Of a DNA stretch of 64,000 bases, positions 10,591-58,029 are shown one piece after another (the stretch's first letter is position 1; every line of letters starts with the position of its first letter). Under the pieces are notes generated by a model. That model did not search any database. It was not told the DNA's origin and saw nothing but the letters and a program-made list of their open reading frames with translations. The translations under genes were made by a program, and so were the position numbers. The stretch spans positions 124,001 through 188,000 of the forward strand of contig CAJNDT010000511.1 in assembly GCA_905221615.1 (NCBI GenBank), written 5' to 3'. This DNA is from Symbiodinium sp. CCMP2592. Lineage: Eukaryota; Sar; Dinophyceae; Suessiales; Symbiodiniaceae.

Positions 10591-10702
10591 CATATGGGGG
10601 TTTCCGAAAATTAGGGGTACCTTATTTTGGAGTCCCTATACTTTGGATCCTGCTATTTCGGGTACTTTGATGGGGTCCCTTATGTTCGGAAACTCCCATA
10701 TG
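10591..10702. repeat. Family B MITE-like element
   Basis: CATATGGGGGTTTCCGAAAA at the left pairs with TCGGAAACTCCCATATG at the right. Inner blocks GGGGTACC, GGTCCC and GGATCC recur in all copies: about 21771-21876, 22035-22134, 48724-48832 and 57254-57361, plus fragments near 1521, 26296 and 51917. Confidence 0.8.
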
Positions 10703-43883: not shown

Positions 43884-45032
43884 GAAAGGCCGCGGTGCAA
43901 GGATCTGGCGAGCCCCAAGCCCAGTGGCAAACAGGGTTTAGGGTTGGGGGGATTTGCAAGATCTTCATAGGAGTGTAGGTTAAGGCTATGGGGTGTAGGC
44001 TTTGCGGGGCTCAAAATAGGGGTTATGGATATTCGGGCTCAGGGCCCGGGGTCTAGACTTTAGGGGTTTACTGCGGGTTTAGGGTGGAGGCTTTAGAGTT
44101 ACGGGGTTCAGGGTTGACAGTCTCTTCATAAGATTTTGGGTTCCGGCTTCAGAGTCTGGGGCTAAACCCTAAAACAACCCTTACACCCCTACACCCTAAA
44201 CCCCCTAAACCCTTATAGCACCCTTTAAAGGAACCCCTAAAAATCCTATTGATCCCTTCAAAGAGAACCCCTGAACCCAATTCCCCTAAGCCTACAGGCT
44301 CGTCATAGGAGTTTTTCCGAGGATCTCCTCTGGAGTCGTGGAGCGAAACGCTGGTACCTATTTCGGGCTTTAGGGGTTACTATAGGGTTTAGGGTTTAGG
44401 GTCTGGCCGGGCGAACACTAATCAAGCCTGTGGAAAAGGGGTTACTATAGGGGCTTAAATAATTACCCAGATTATTTTGGGGGTTCCTTGTTATAAATAG
44501 AGTATAATGGGCCCCAAAACCCTGTTCTAATTATCGAGGCCCCCATATTGGGGGCCCAGGCGTTCAGTGGTTTAGGGGCTTGGTCAAAAAAAGAGTCTGG
44601 GGATACTGATGGAGGCAATTCAGAGAGACCCGATGGGGGTTGGGTCAGGGTTTGGGTTTAAGAGTTTCAGTGTCAAAATTAGGGTTAATCCCCATCCCAA
44701 GACCCATCATTCAAACACATCTCCTAGGCGCTGCCGGTGACGACAGCTCGCACAACCTCAGGTCGCGGCTTCACCGTGGACATGAGAGTTCAACAAGTAA
44801 GGTTCCCAAATGTAGACTGCGAGCAGCAGGATCTCTTCTATACCGGCCAGAGGCTCTTCTAAACTAGGAAAACTTTATGAACTTTATGGTTTGTGGCTGC
44901 CCGAAACCGGAGACCGCAAACCTTAAACCCCGAACCCGAAGCTTTCGTCCGCCAGAAGTATGACACCGTCTGGCATTCTGGCCTTCTTTTCGAAGTCTCG
45001 TCTGAAGACCTTGCCTGGCAGTGATGGTGTGC

Positions 45033-45156
45033 TACTTAAAGGATCATGGGACTTAGTAACTGGGGTTATAATTAGGGCAACTATACTTATAACTACTTAT
45101 AACTCCAGTTAAGGTACTTATAACCTTACTTACTAAGTCCCATGATCCTCCAAGTA
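45033..45156. repeat. Family A MITE-like element
   Basis: TACTTAAAGGATCATGGGAC against GTCCCATGATCCTCCAAGTA. Its TACTTAAAGG left end is shared with the copy at 1897, which suggests a subfamily. Confidence 0.8.
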
Positions 45157-46591
45157 GTGTCGAACGTCGAAAGCTCTTTCGGAACTTAGGGTTTAGGCTT
45201 TTTTTACTTACGCTGAGTCCCTGTGTTTGGGGTTTCAGGCTTGGGAGCTTAAGCTTGAGGGCTTCATGGGGTTACGGTTTGGGGTTTCGGGTTGAGGCTA
45301 GGCGGCTTGGAGCTTGGGATTTGGGGTTGGGACGGTTTGAGCTTGTCTATGATATTCCGCTGCAGCAGTGAAAATGATGCAGCACATGTGTGTGCCATCC
45401 GACACATGCACCCACCCCGCGCCGCTGAAGGCGGTAAAATCACCCAAATCTGATCAATGCATGGTTTATGCCTAGACTCACGAACATGATTTTGAAGGCT
45501 TTGGCAATTCCTCCTTGTCGGTATTCCACTCAAGTAAAGCAAGGCCCATAAAACGGGCCCTTTACTTTGCAGAAAGCACCCAGATACCACATTGCTTGCC
45601 AGAACGCGAGAATCGTAGGACCGAAGAGGTTTCATGAGGTTCAGGGCTTTCGAGTCTATCTTCCGTCAGACCACGGGTAGCTACACGCATGCTGCAGCTA
45701 CCCATGAACCCTGACACATCATCCCTTAACTGAAGTTCATTACCACGCAAATGCACGCGCGTAATGGCAACAACACGCAGTGCGACAAGTCTGAGACACA
45801 CAACCATAATAAAAGAGAAACAAACACGATAAGGGAATGAACAGACAAACAAACGAACGCACCATCGAGCGAGCGAGCGAACGGATAGACGAACGAAGGA
45901 GCGAACAAACAAACGAACGAGTCACCCAAACACGCAAACGAGTACTGCTATTGTCTTTGATGCCCTAAGCAACAGCAGCTTCGAAAGCAACTCGTCACGG
46001 GAGGGGGGACGGGGGCACGGGCAGGCGAACATCTTCCCCTCCTGCAAGAGGATGCAGCCCCGAGGATCTAGCATGGAGTGCAGCTGGACGCACAGATCGG
46101 GCCCCTTAAACCCTAAACCCTAGACTTTTCAACCCTAAGCCCTAAACCCTAAACCCCTTAATCCTGCAGGTGGAAAAGAGCCCATAAAAAAAAAAAAAAA
46201 CCTTAATCCCGAACCCTTAAGACTTTGAGGGTTTGGGGGGTCTCAGGCTGCGATCTTTTGGGTTCGGGGTTGAGTTCTTTGGGTTGGCAGGTTCCAGGTT
46301 TGGACCTGGACTTGGCGCAGGGTCTAGGGATGTACTTTATGGGGCCTAGATAATTACACTCACTAGTTTGGGGGTTCCTTATTATAACTTATAACTATAG
46401 TATAATGGGCCCCGAAACCTACTCTAATTGTGGGCTTGGGGTCAGCACAGAACATCCCAAAAGCTTGAAGTCCTCAAAGCTTGGTGAGCTCCTGGTCCTG
46501 GCATCAACAAACATGCGTGGACTTGCCAGAAATTAGGTCTGGCCGATCTTTTGAGTGCAGTTCATGCCATCCTAGAGTCGTAGATCCTTAG

Positions 46592-51588: not shown

Positions 51589-51782
51589 AAGTTGGAAGCC
51601 GGATTAAGGCCAAATAGTGCTGGGATTCCCTAATATATTATAATCTTAAGGATCGAGGCTGTTGGGTTTCCAACTTTTGGGCTTCTACTGTAACACTTAG
51701 AGCATCGTGGGACTTAGTATAAGTAAGGTTCCTTAACAGGGTTCCTTAAAAGGGGTCCTTAAAGGGATCTAGAAGGCAAGGG

Positions 51783-51910
51783 CTCTATAAGGGAAGATCA
51801 TGGGACTTAGTAAGTAAGGTTATTGGTACCTTAACTTGGGTTATAAGTAGATATAAGTATAGTTACCTTATCAATAACCTTACTTACTAAGCCCCGTGAT
51901 CCTCTAAGTA
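51783..51910. repeat. Family A element with fragments around it
   Basis: AGATCATGGGACTTAGTAAG against CTTACTAAGCCCCGTGATCC. Another partial left end lies at 51700-51728, and half of a family B element follows at 51917-51987. Confidence 0.75.
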
Positions 51911-55818: not shown

Positions 55819-55929
55819 CTGGAGGATCATGGGACTTAGTAAGTAAGGTTATAAGTACCCTAATTGGGGTTATAAGTATAGTTACCTTACTTATAACCCC
55901 ACTTACTAAGTCCCATGATCCTCTAAGTA
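55819..55929. repeat. Family A MITE-like element
   Basis: GGAGGATCATGGGACTTAGT against ACTAAGTCCCATGATCCTC. The sequence CACCATTTGGCTCAAG follows it directly (see findings). Confidence 0.85.
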
Positions 55930-56106
55930 CACCATTTGGCTCAAGCATAAAGCGTGCATCAGACTCGGCTAATGGATGTGGGGTAGCTAGCAGCTAGCAA
56001 GTAGCAGTTACACATGTCCGCGTTGGCCTTATGCAGGCTATTGACCTTCATTGATGTCTAGTTCAGCCTCCTTCGGCTTGTGACCGTATCCCGATTGCGA
56101 CTCTTC

Positions 56107-58029
56107 ATGGGGAAGTCGGCGGAGGTCACCGTCCAAGAGGTCGACGCCGCTGCCTTTCACCTCTTGAACGCCGATTTCAAAGGGGCGAATGCCTTCAGCG
56201 AGGGAGCGAATGCACTTTGCGAAAAGACCGTGGGGGTTTCTCGCGATGCGTTGCTGCAGTGCGGACGCTTGCGTCTCGTCGCGCGTTTGGCAAAGGTCCT
56301 GCGCCTGCTTTCTCAGCCGGGGGAGCGGCTCAGCAAGGCGGCTCGCGATTGGGCCAAGACTCCCAGCGTCGATGCGCTTCTGGAAGTTACTTTGTCACAG
56401 TTGGGTAACCTTTTACATTTCTATGGGTACTTGAACCCAATCCGCAATAAAATGTACATTTTTAATCCTATCCCAACAATAAACTAAAGGATCATGGGAC
56501 TTAGTAGGTAGGGTTCCTTATAGGGTTTAGGGTTTGGGGTCTACTTAAAAGATCATGGGACTGAGCAAGTAGGTTCGGGACATCGGCTTGGAAGAGGGCC
56601 CAGCCTCGAGTGCAGCAAGCTCGGACCGGGTCTCCCGCGAGGTCTTCCAAGCAGCGCGGAAGTTGAGCCGTGAAACTAGGCTCTTGTTATAAGGGATCTA
56701 GTTTAAGGTACCATATACAACGAAGAAACCCATAATGAAGAAGCCATATTGTTTACCATCGACCCCTAATTATTCTGGTAATTTACAGTAAAAATTCCTT
56801 AAGAAGAGCCCAGGACATGCTGCCGAAGCATGGCGAAGAGGATCCCATCGAAGCCTTCGGGGACTCGCAGGCCTCGACCCTAAACCCTAAACCCTAAATC
56901 CTCAACCCTTGAGACCTCGTCAGGTATGTCCGAGTTGCGAGAGCGTAAACCCTAACCTTTTTTTTTTTTATACCCTAAACCCTAAACCCTGGGGACTCGC
57001 AGGCCTCGACGGTGCCGGGAGAAGCTTCGCCGGCGGAGTCGAGGGAGTACCGAGCTCTGAAGCGATACAAGCCAGGGAAGACAGGTAGGAGTGTCCGAAA
57101 AACTTAAGGTGTGCCTTTAAAGGGATCAGATCTATAAGAGTTCTATAAAGGGTTTAGGGTTTAGAGTGTCCGAAAAACTTAGGGGGTTACCTTTAAAGGG
57201 GATCCTTAATGGGATCTGTAAGAGTTTCATAAAGGGTTCAGGGAAGTTTGGGGTTAGAGTTTCCGAAAATTAGGGGTACCTTATTTGGGGGCCCTTGTAA
57301 TAAAGGATCCTCCTCTTTAGGGTGCTATAGTTAGGGTCCCCTATATTTTGGAAACTCCCAGGTGTGCAGGGAGAAGGATCTGCGTCTCGGGGTGGCCCCA
57401 ACATCTTCGATGCCCCGTTAGTCAGCGAGATGCCTTCCTTCGAAGACGGTCTTGCAGGACGGCCTTCGAACAAGCGAGTGCACTCCTTTGCGCAGACTTC
57501 GGAGGGCGACACCTTCGTGGCGCAAGGTGGAGCCCCGAAGGCCAGGAAGGAATACAGTGCCTGGACAACTGTTAAGGGATTTAGTTTAAGTTGCCTTAAA
57601 AAAGAGACCGTATCATTTACTATAGATCCCTATTATGGTAACTTTAAGTTGCCTTTGAAAAGCAAACATATCATTTTACTATAGGTCCCTGTTACGGCAA
57701 CTTTTCCCTAAGAAGAGCCCAGGTGTCTGGACCGAAGGAGAAGAGCAGCGTCTACTCGAGGGCTTCAAAATCTACGGAAAGCAGTGGGCCATGATTTCCA
57801 AGTGCTGCGGCCTGCAACACAGGAGTGGGGTTTGGGGGTTAGGGTTTAAGGCTTAGGGGAGGCCAACGCAGGCTGGGTTCTTGATGAAATTTAAGTTACC
57901 CTAAATTGAGTTCCTTAACAAAAACCTTGCAGGAGTGGGATGCAGATCAAGGACAAGTGGCGGATTCTGCAGAAAAACGGCATCGTGCCCGCGCGCGGCG
58001 CGGATGGCCGCTTGGACGTCGAGGATTGA
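56107..58029 (+). CDS. Telobox Myb protein, TRF-like telomere-binding candidate
   Basis: Proposed exons: 56107-about 56385, 56573-56671, 56814-56870, 57003-57084, 57362-57556, 57723-57822, 57933-58029; about 300 residues. The first exon (ATG at 56107, frame open further upstream) is helical (VDAAAFHLLNADF, LQCGRLRLVARLAKVLRLL) and unrecognised. The middle is acidic and Ser/Pro/Gly-rich. The end is a single Myb/SANT repeat: YSVWTEGEEQRLLEGFKIYG, KQWAMISKCCG and IKDKWRILQKNG. KDKWR is the telobox signature of helix 3 in TRF and plant TRF-like proteins, which bind double-stranded TTAGGG-type DNA; a C-terminal position is usual for animal TRF proteins. All junctions from 56671 on keep frame and end at TGA 58027-58029. 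The first junction is the weakest. Donors are GA (56671), GC (56870), GT (57084), GT (57556) and GA (57822). Function in telomere binding is inferred from the motif; a TRFH dimerisation domain could not be confirmed. Confidence 0.65.
56680..56813. repeat. Family G element forming an intron
   Basis: GGCTCTTGTTATAAGGGATC at the left and AATTCCTTAAGAAGAGCCCAG at the right. The element fills essentially the whole intron; its last bases CCCAG are the splice acceptor. Confidence 0.7.
57254..57361. repeat. Family B element ending at a splice acceptor
   Basis: TTAGAGTTTCCGAAAATTAG against TATTTTGGAAACTCCCAG. The final CCCAG is used as acceptor for the exon starting 57362. Confidence 0.75.
57570..57722. 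repeat. Family G element filling an intron
   Basis: GTTAAGGGATTTAGTTTAAG at the left and TTTTCCCTAAGAAGAGCCCAG at the right. AACTTTAAGTTGCC and ATTTACTATAG blocks inside are repeated. Its end again supplies the AG acceptor. Confidence 0.7.

Follow-up and report, generated by a model that had tools for sequence, protein, structure and literature searches.

Why would a gene whose protein ends in a telobox-like Myb repeat have introns built partly of telomere-like DNA, and where did these introns come from? We addressed this question for a gene at positions 56107 to 58029 (plus strand) of a 64,000-nucleotide stretch of Symbiodinium sp. CCMP2592 DNA, called the window here (C511:124001-188000 of a genome that was searched across 1.098 Gb and 5383 contigs). 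An earlier note on this DNA had proposed a seven-exon gene ending in a Myb repeat with the motif IKDKWR, and had suggested that the protein may bind its own gene and the arrays around it. Our analysis favors a different history, in which a TRF-like gene was retrocopied into the locus and regained its introns from mobile and telomere-like insertions, a reading to which we assign a probability of about two in three (0.66). Going beyond that first description, we found a relic of the dinoflagellate spliced leader (DinoSL), a 20-bp direct repeat around one intron, introner-like and miniature inverted-repeat transposable element (MITE) content in others, and a paralog with empty intron sites.

Results

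We found that seven exons join into one open frame of 909 nt including the stop (302 amino acids), from an ATG at 56107 to a stop codon that ends at 58029; the same frame has a stop at 56059 and no other ATG from there to 56107. Exon 1 (56107-56385) carries the start codon and a predicted helical N-terminal region, followed by exons 2 (56573-56671), 3 (56814-56870), and 4 (57003-57084); exon 5 (57362-57556) encodes a linker and the beginning of the Myb domain, exon 6 (57723-57822) Myb helices 1 and 2, and exon 7 (57933-58029) the recognition helix, the C-terminus, and the stop TGA, all on the plus strand. As drawn, introns 1 to 6 would be spliced from the donors GT, GA, GC, GT, GT, and GA, each to an AG acceptor (6 of 6). 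A six-exon alternative without 56573-56671 is equally open (269 amino acids), and many alternative joins around this segment also keep the frame. We adopted the seven-exon model with these ends because the paralog is contiguous at both exon 2 junctions; the GC profile likewise marks exon 2 as a GC-rich island between two inserts, within what would be the first intron of the six-exon model. A genome-search match to the window was dropped as support for exon 2, the query having already contained it.

When 212 codons were compared with the paralog, synonymous divergence (dS) was 0.278 and nonsynonymous divergence (dN) 0.082, for a dN/dS of 0.29 after two overlapping alignment rows (N 262-288 and C 615-635) had been dropped and block ends trimmed by hand. 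The same comparison contains 177 identical residues, differences of 20/16/38 by codon position, and no stop in the paralog. The dN/dS ratio, the codon-position pattern, and the lack of stops together indicate that the exons are coding sequence under constraint, and the gene is under purifying selection. With its open 302-residue frame, its Pfam Myb match, and this ratio, the spliceable seven-exon gene that the earlier note had drawn is borne out.

The first sign of a retrogene is a DinoSL relic, CCATTTGGCTCAAG (55932-55945), which has the same orientation as the gene and precedes its ATG by 161 nt. It matches the last 15 nt of the spliced leader with one T missing and is the only match to the DinoSL 15-mer at one edit or fewer on both window strands, compared to 0 in 20 shuffled 64-kb sequences. 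Genome-wide, the DinoSL 21-mer CCGTAGCCATTTTGGCTCAAG has 429 exact copies and its reversed control 0, which marks the genome as that of a dinoflagellate. DinoSL relics are described as marks of retrogenes, some of which have introns, novel or inherited (PMC6050394), and retrogenes are given as 22-25% of genes in Symbiodinium genomes (PMC12014239). A MITE-like repeat around GGATCATGGGACTTAGTAAGTAAGG recurs in the window (55823-55933, 1892-1931, 45032-45157, 51698-51906, and others), with one copy immediately upstream of the relic and another within intron 1.

The second line of evidence is the paralog, which lies on the minus strand of contig C5265 and aligns in 16 blocks, separated by 15 breaks, over parts of positions 1-739 of the coding sequence (CDS), the two overlapping rows named above being left out of the count. 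Its halves, at 168.5-170.2 kb and 248.2-251.7 kb of C5265, share a strand but are separated by about 78 kb, and the stretch that corresponds to exon 1 is divided among about eight fragments; a giant intron or a rearrangement of the copy could account for this layout. Where our gene has introns 1, 2, and 5, the paralog runs on without a break. At the first of these sites, CTTCTGGAAGTTAGGGACATCGG is unbroken, with AGCCGT joined directly to GACATG across the exon 1/exon 2 junction, and the empty sites of introns 2 and 5 read TTGAGCCGTGACATGCTGCC and AATACAGTGCCTGGACTGAAGG. In 12.9 kb of C5265, we detected neither C-terminal Myb exons of the paralog nor a counterpart of the intron 6 region. We infer that the parent gene was this paralog or one like it.

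Intron 3 (56871-57002, GC-AG) consists of telomere-like CCCTAAA DNA with a nested piece of a short interspersed nuclear element (SINE). A perfect 20-bp direct repeat, GGGGACTCGCAGGCCTCGAC, lies across both splice sites and includes the last bases of exon 3 and the first of exon 4: the left copy (56859-56878) holds 12 exon and 8 intron bases, and the right copy (56991-57010) 12 intron and 8 exon bases. The 20-mer occurs twice in the 1.1 Gb genome, both times at intron 3. Among about 200,000 random donor/acceptor pairs, none had a splice-register repeat of at least 15 bp, and a fraction of 8e-5 reached 10 bp. The simplest reading of the repeat is that uninterrupted exon 3 and exon 4 sequence was duplicated, which would mean that intron 3 was born by insertion into continuous exon. 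Since an insert into contiguous exon sequence would yield such a repeat, the arrangement fits a retrocopy that had lost an older intron.

Mobile DNA makes up much of the other introns. Intron 5 (57557-57722, GT-AG) is an introner-like element flanked by the target repeats GTGCCTGGAC and GTGTCTGGAC, equal at 9 of 10 positions; the donor GT comes from the left repeat, and the element supplies the CCCAG acceptor. Its family gave 1051 first-look candidates in the genome, 40 of which were scored; by eye, several of seven other fetched copies have the ends CTGGGYTCTTGTTAAGG ... CCTTAACAAGARCCCAG, and one (L078) has a 15-bp target duplication. Intron 2 (56672-56813, GA-AG), an introner-like element with the ends GCTCTTGTTATAAGG ... 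AAGAAGAGCCCAG, aligns to eight of eight introner copies above all 200 shuffles (scores 33-72 vs at most 30), a family link not reported by blastn at E<=1e-3 within the window. Introns 2 and 5 each combine a repeated element with an empty site in the paralog, which would qualify both as introners. Intron 6 (57823-57932, GA-AG), with a telomere-like stretch at about 57829-57861, is perhaps an introner remnant; it aligns to five of the eight copies above all 200 shuffles and to three not, and a 10-bp direct repeat, CAGGAGTGGG, stands in splice register at 57820-57829 and 57930-57939.

Intron 4 (57085-57361, GT-AG) is a MITE with inverted ends GGAGTGTCCGAAAA ... TTTTGGAAACTCC by eye, and seven further places in the window repeat its second half in full or partly. 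Outside the gene, complete or fragmentary copies of this element, with the ends GGGAGTTTCCGAAAATTAGGGG and CCCCTATTTTCGGAAACTCCC, were seen at window positions 10600, 21775, 22037, 26299, 48826, 51983, and 1577. Intron 1 (56386-56572, GT-AG) is AT-rich, with a MITE-like stretch, three TAGGGTT sites, and the empty site in the paralog already described.

Several observations weigh against a retrocopied origin. Besides its missing T, the relic is without the six leading bases of the 21-mer, and its distance of 161 nt from the ATG exceeds the usual 50-100 nt given in PMC6050394. Splice-register repeats at introns 1, 3, and 4 of the six-exon model are only 1 to 5 bp long. In addition, a flanking repeat of at least 15 bp is found at only 1 of the 91 telomere-like blocks of the window, a rarity that suggests intron 3 may be a one-off. 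Finally, intron position 3 and the position 4 acceptor are found in both the paralog and our gene, so retention rather than parallel gain is possible at these sites. Such shared positions are what would be expected of an ancestral intron-bearing gene that was never retroposed, with mobile and telomere-like DNA later filling its introns or taking their place.

We consider such an ancestral gene unlikely. The paralog is without introns 1, 2, and 5, and its other breaks, as read from the alignment, have no intron here; our gene has a DinoSL relic; and the 20-bp repeat is hard to explain unless both exons were contiguous at the time of insertion. Of the 15 paralog breaks, 2 coincide with introns here (CDS 435 and the acceptor at 517), and the paralog has at the intron 3 site an unrelated stretch of about 250 bp that is bounded by AG/GC and AG and looks free of telomere-like DNA by eye. 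Both shared sites are AG/G. Since the first 740 nt contain 22 AG/G sites, about eight of which are used by the paralog (junctions approximate), the shared positions would coincide by chance with a probability of about 12%.

We also considered whether target repeats are a general rule at telomere-like blocks and rejected the idea: repeats of at least 10 bp flank 5 of 91 window blocks, compared to 4.3 expected, and 10 of 188 blocks in 61 other loci, compared to 31 of 940 controls. Five blocks in the 61 loci have at least 12 bp; one is insert-like (L034, 17 bp), and L036, L046, L071, and L072 appear tandem or MITE-like by eye. The L034 block (1716-1811) is a telomere-like insert with a perfect 17-bp direct repeat, AGGGTCCCTCCTTTTCC, and is the only other such case among the 188 blocks.

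The nested element in intron 3 (56911-56948, plus strand) is a 5'-truncated SINE-like retroposon with the 3' end GTCCGAGTTGCGAGAGCGTAA. Its 18-mer core has 742 exact genome copies (reversed control 0), and the genome query with intron 3 DNA gave 542 first-look candidates, 40 of which were scored. Some other copies end at GCGTAA and are followed by a repeat of the sequence preceding the element; repeats of at least 11 were found at 15 of 52 copies vs 9.1% of 2652 mismatched pairs, and repeats of at least 9 at 25 of 52 vs 21.6%, the recurrence of telomere words making the control high. Inspection by eye showed the last 40 nt to be common to copies with different 5' parts (L049/L063 and L064/L067). 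The five window copies found (3783, 4718, 12393, 15146, and 56937, plus strand) all lie on the gene strand, one being only about 70% alike, and among 100 of the 742 places, neighbors on a contig have the same strand in 51 of 56 adjacent pairs, as if kept in gene sense. A tRNA-derived core was rejected, no tRNA being found in the window, and Rfam gave no family at gathering score in the window, with seven sub-threshold matches near the gene.

We had asked as well whether this core could have come from telomerase RNA, as a piece copied beyond the template, which would make intron 3 a product of telomerase-mediated break repair. Many core copies abut TAAACCCTAAA, and rodents have pieces of telomerase RNA beside interstitial telomere repeats (PMC2246262). 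However, other copies end at GCGTAA and continue into non-telomeric target duplications (ATACAATTACA, ATCAAGACGTGCTT, and others), and several different 5' parts with one common 3' end are the pattern of a SINE. With its SINE-like 3' end, 5' truncation, and non-telomeric target duplications, the core is hardly credible as telomerase RNA, and we gave up this origin. The telomere-like array, unlike the core, could still stem from telomerase-mediated repair.

We then turned to the protein. Pfam Myb_DNA-binding (PF00249) matched residues 206-248 of the 269-residue version at E=1.5e-8 (35 bits vs a cut-off of 24.4); the run used the six-exon protein, whose Myb part is identical in the seven-exon model. 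The recognition helix of the C-terminal repeat is MQIKDKWRIL, and the telobox helix 3 consensus is VDLKDKWRN. Over 16 residues around helix 3, BLOSUM scores were 46 against TRF1 and 43 against NtTBP1 and 18-25 against five Myb repeats. A telobox-like helix 3 (IKDKWR) is present in the domain, and this part of the telobox or TRF-type identity proposed in the earlier note stands.

The domain as a whole was not placed in the TRF group. We compared a telobox profile built from four domains with a generic profile built from seven Myb repeats, both small sets with near relatives. The domain matched the telobox profile at 23.2 bits and the generic profile at 36.7, which favors a generic Myb repeat, as does the list of Protein Data Bank sequence matches, headed not by TRF but by B-MYB (2.1e-7), with Trichomonas MYB21, c-Myb, TRF2 (5e-4), and TRF1 (4e-3) after it in an order that was similar with the domain alone. 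The TRFH dimerization domain is a feature of animal and yeast TRF members, and Pfam gave no match to it at E<=1. The two profile scores, the leading B-MYB and MYB21 matches, and the lack of a Pfam match to the dimerization domain are what one would see in a generic single-repeat Myb/SANT regulator without a telomere role, its telobox look being due to chance or convergence.

We regard such a regulator as a possibility of some weight, if not a favored one. Human TRF1, left out of its own profile, gave the same outcome (18.7 telobox vs 29.1 generic), so a true member fails this test, and whole-domain scoring cannot decide for TRF1-like members; our domain behaves like TRF1 here. Left-out plant telobox members scored 116-124 vs 14-18, and the seven left-out Myb repeats 9-23 telobox vs 49-79 generic, above the 36.7 of our domain, several of these repeats being close relatives. 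Helix 3 is nearer to TRF1 and TBP1 than to any of the five Myb repeats, and the domain follows a helical region at the C-terminus, which is the layout of TRF proteins. A telomere-binding role of the protein is thus on balance probable, and the C-terminal Myb repeat would bind duplex TTTAGGG.

The N-terminal region had a mean pLDDT of 57.6 with five helices in single-sequence AlphaFold2, too weak for a fold search, and no NCBIfam family matched. A genome search with PF00249, which can miss split exons, scored 25 candidates and reported exon 6 alone at E<=0.01; of 14 control genomes, one (Bacillus subtilis) also gave a match. A plant TBP1 Myb query for a second telobox gene matched nothing in the genome, in a search too weak to prove absence.

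Telomere-like heptamers had been described at 56871-56990 and 57823-57870, and they are there: exact heptamers cover 38.6% of the bases of intron 3 (56871-57002) and 16.4% of intron 6 (57823-57932), compared to 0 exact heptamers in exons of the six-exon model. Such DNA is common throughout the window, which contains 148 TTTAGGG and 151 CCCTAAA on the plus strand and 91 telomere-like blocks, with a heptamer coverage of 6.8% vs 0.7-1.0% in five first-order Markov sequences.

The suggestion that a TRF-type protein recognizes the repeats in its own introns and nearby arrays, as self-regulation or array coating, draws on the KDKWR helix occurring together with telomere-like DNA in the introns, where TAGGGTT density is 8.9 per kb vs 3.7 in the remaining window, or 2.4 times background (n=9 sites). 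Over the gene span, however, heptamer coverage is 6.3%, compared to a mean of 6.9% in same-length stretches (44% of which equal or exceed the gene), and nine TAGGGTT sites compare to a mean of 7.4, with 34% of stretches as high. The repeats read CCCTAAA in intron 3 but TTTAGGG in introns 1, 4, and 6, a difference in strand; they lie in different elements, and other stretches of this length look alike. Since density over the gene span is close to the window average, self-binding is without support, and we consider it very unlikely. The telomere-like DNA in the gene is about what any window stretch of equal length would show; it is genomic background and not a targeted feature.

Discussion

Together, these findings suggest a sequence of events. 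A trans-spliced mRNA of a single-Myb, probably telomere-binding protein would have been reverse-transcribed into the locus, leaving the DinoSL relic, and the intronless copy would then have regained introns one by one. Introner-like elements would have made introns 2 and 5, and perhaps 6, with the CCCAG 3' splice site borne by the element and, in intron 5, the 5' splice site borrowed from the duplicated target. A MITE would have made intron 4. Intron 3 may have come from a telomere-like insertion whose 20-bp target duplication supplies both splice sites, with the SINE inserted within it later.

Each step resembles known systems in part. Like DinoSL-marked retrogenes (PMC6050394 and PMC12014239), the gene has a relic upstream of its ATG and a broken-up paralog elsewhere in the genome; unlike them, the copy has six introns, for which the sequence suggests gain after copying. 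Introners have been described in Symbiodinium microadriaticum and other dinoflagellates, and these reports (PMC9860276 and PMC11453091, the latter with a summary of Roy et al. 2023) give inverted ends, target duplications, and an element that brings the 3' splice site, with the 5' site borrowed from the duplication, as here; the duplications are about 10-15 bp here (intron 5 and L078), compared to 4 bp. In mammals, short interstitial telomere repeats were inserted at double-strand breaks, some with target-site duplication (PMC2246262). The insert here differs in that it would act as a spliceosomal intron, with the duplication giving both splice sites.

The protein is like TRF-type and plant TRP/TBP1 telobox proteins in its C-terminal single Myb repeat, its helix 3 of the form (L/I)KD(K/R)W(R/K), and the basic residues immediately ahead of the repeat. 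It is unlike them in its 23-25% identity across the domain, in whole-domain scores closer to Myb repeats, and in a stretch from first helix to helix 3 that is one residue shorter in the alignment than in TRF1 and three shorter than in plant domains; unlike TRF-type proteins, it has no dimerization domain detected by Pfam at E<=1. Among the matches listed for open-licence PMC literature, we found no description of a dinoflagellate telomere-binding protein, and the passages of PMC11508785, PMC11453091, PMC9498494, and PMC3485576 describe no dinoflagellate protein that binds duplex telomere DNA. If our reading is true, this gene is a concrete candidate for one.

Could dinoflagellates gain introns by the insertion of telomere-like DNA? 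On this view, an exon would suffer a staggered break that is filled with telomere-like repeats, the 20-bp fill-in duplication would place AG/G at each end, and the block would be spliced out thereafter. We offer this route tentatively and think it rather doubtful as a general one. Retrogenes and introners are already known in dinoflagellates, and a telomere-like insert turned intron may be new: the listed matches from the same literature included no paper linking telomeric repeats with intron gain, and the passages of PMC8045281 and PMC7789003 contain nothing on telomere-repeat intron gain or on a dinoflagellate telomere-binding protein. A telomere-like intron with a 20-bp duplication may thus be the new element here, seen in one clear case and, with 17 bp, at L034 outside a proven gene. 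If such a route is true, a genome so rich in interstitial telomere DNA would produce introns of this kind again and again, which a telomere-binding protein might in time coat. If the retrocopy reading is true, one gene documents the whole cycle from intron loss through mRNA to intron regain, to which three or more kinds of inserted DNA contributed and whose empty sites and target repeats can still be read, and it offers a testable case of an intron made from telomere-like sequence.

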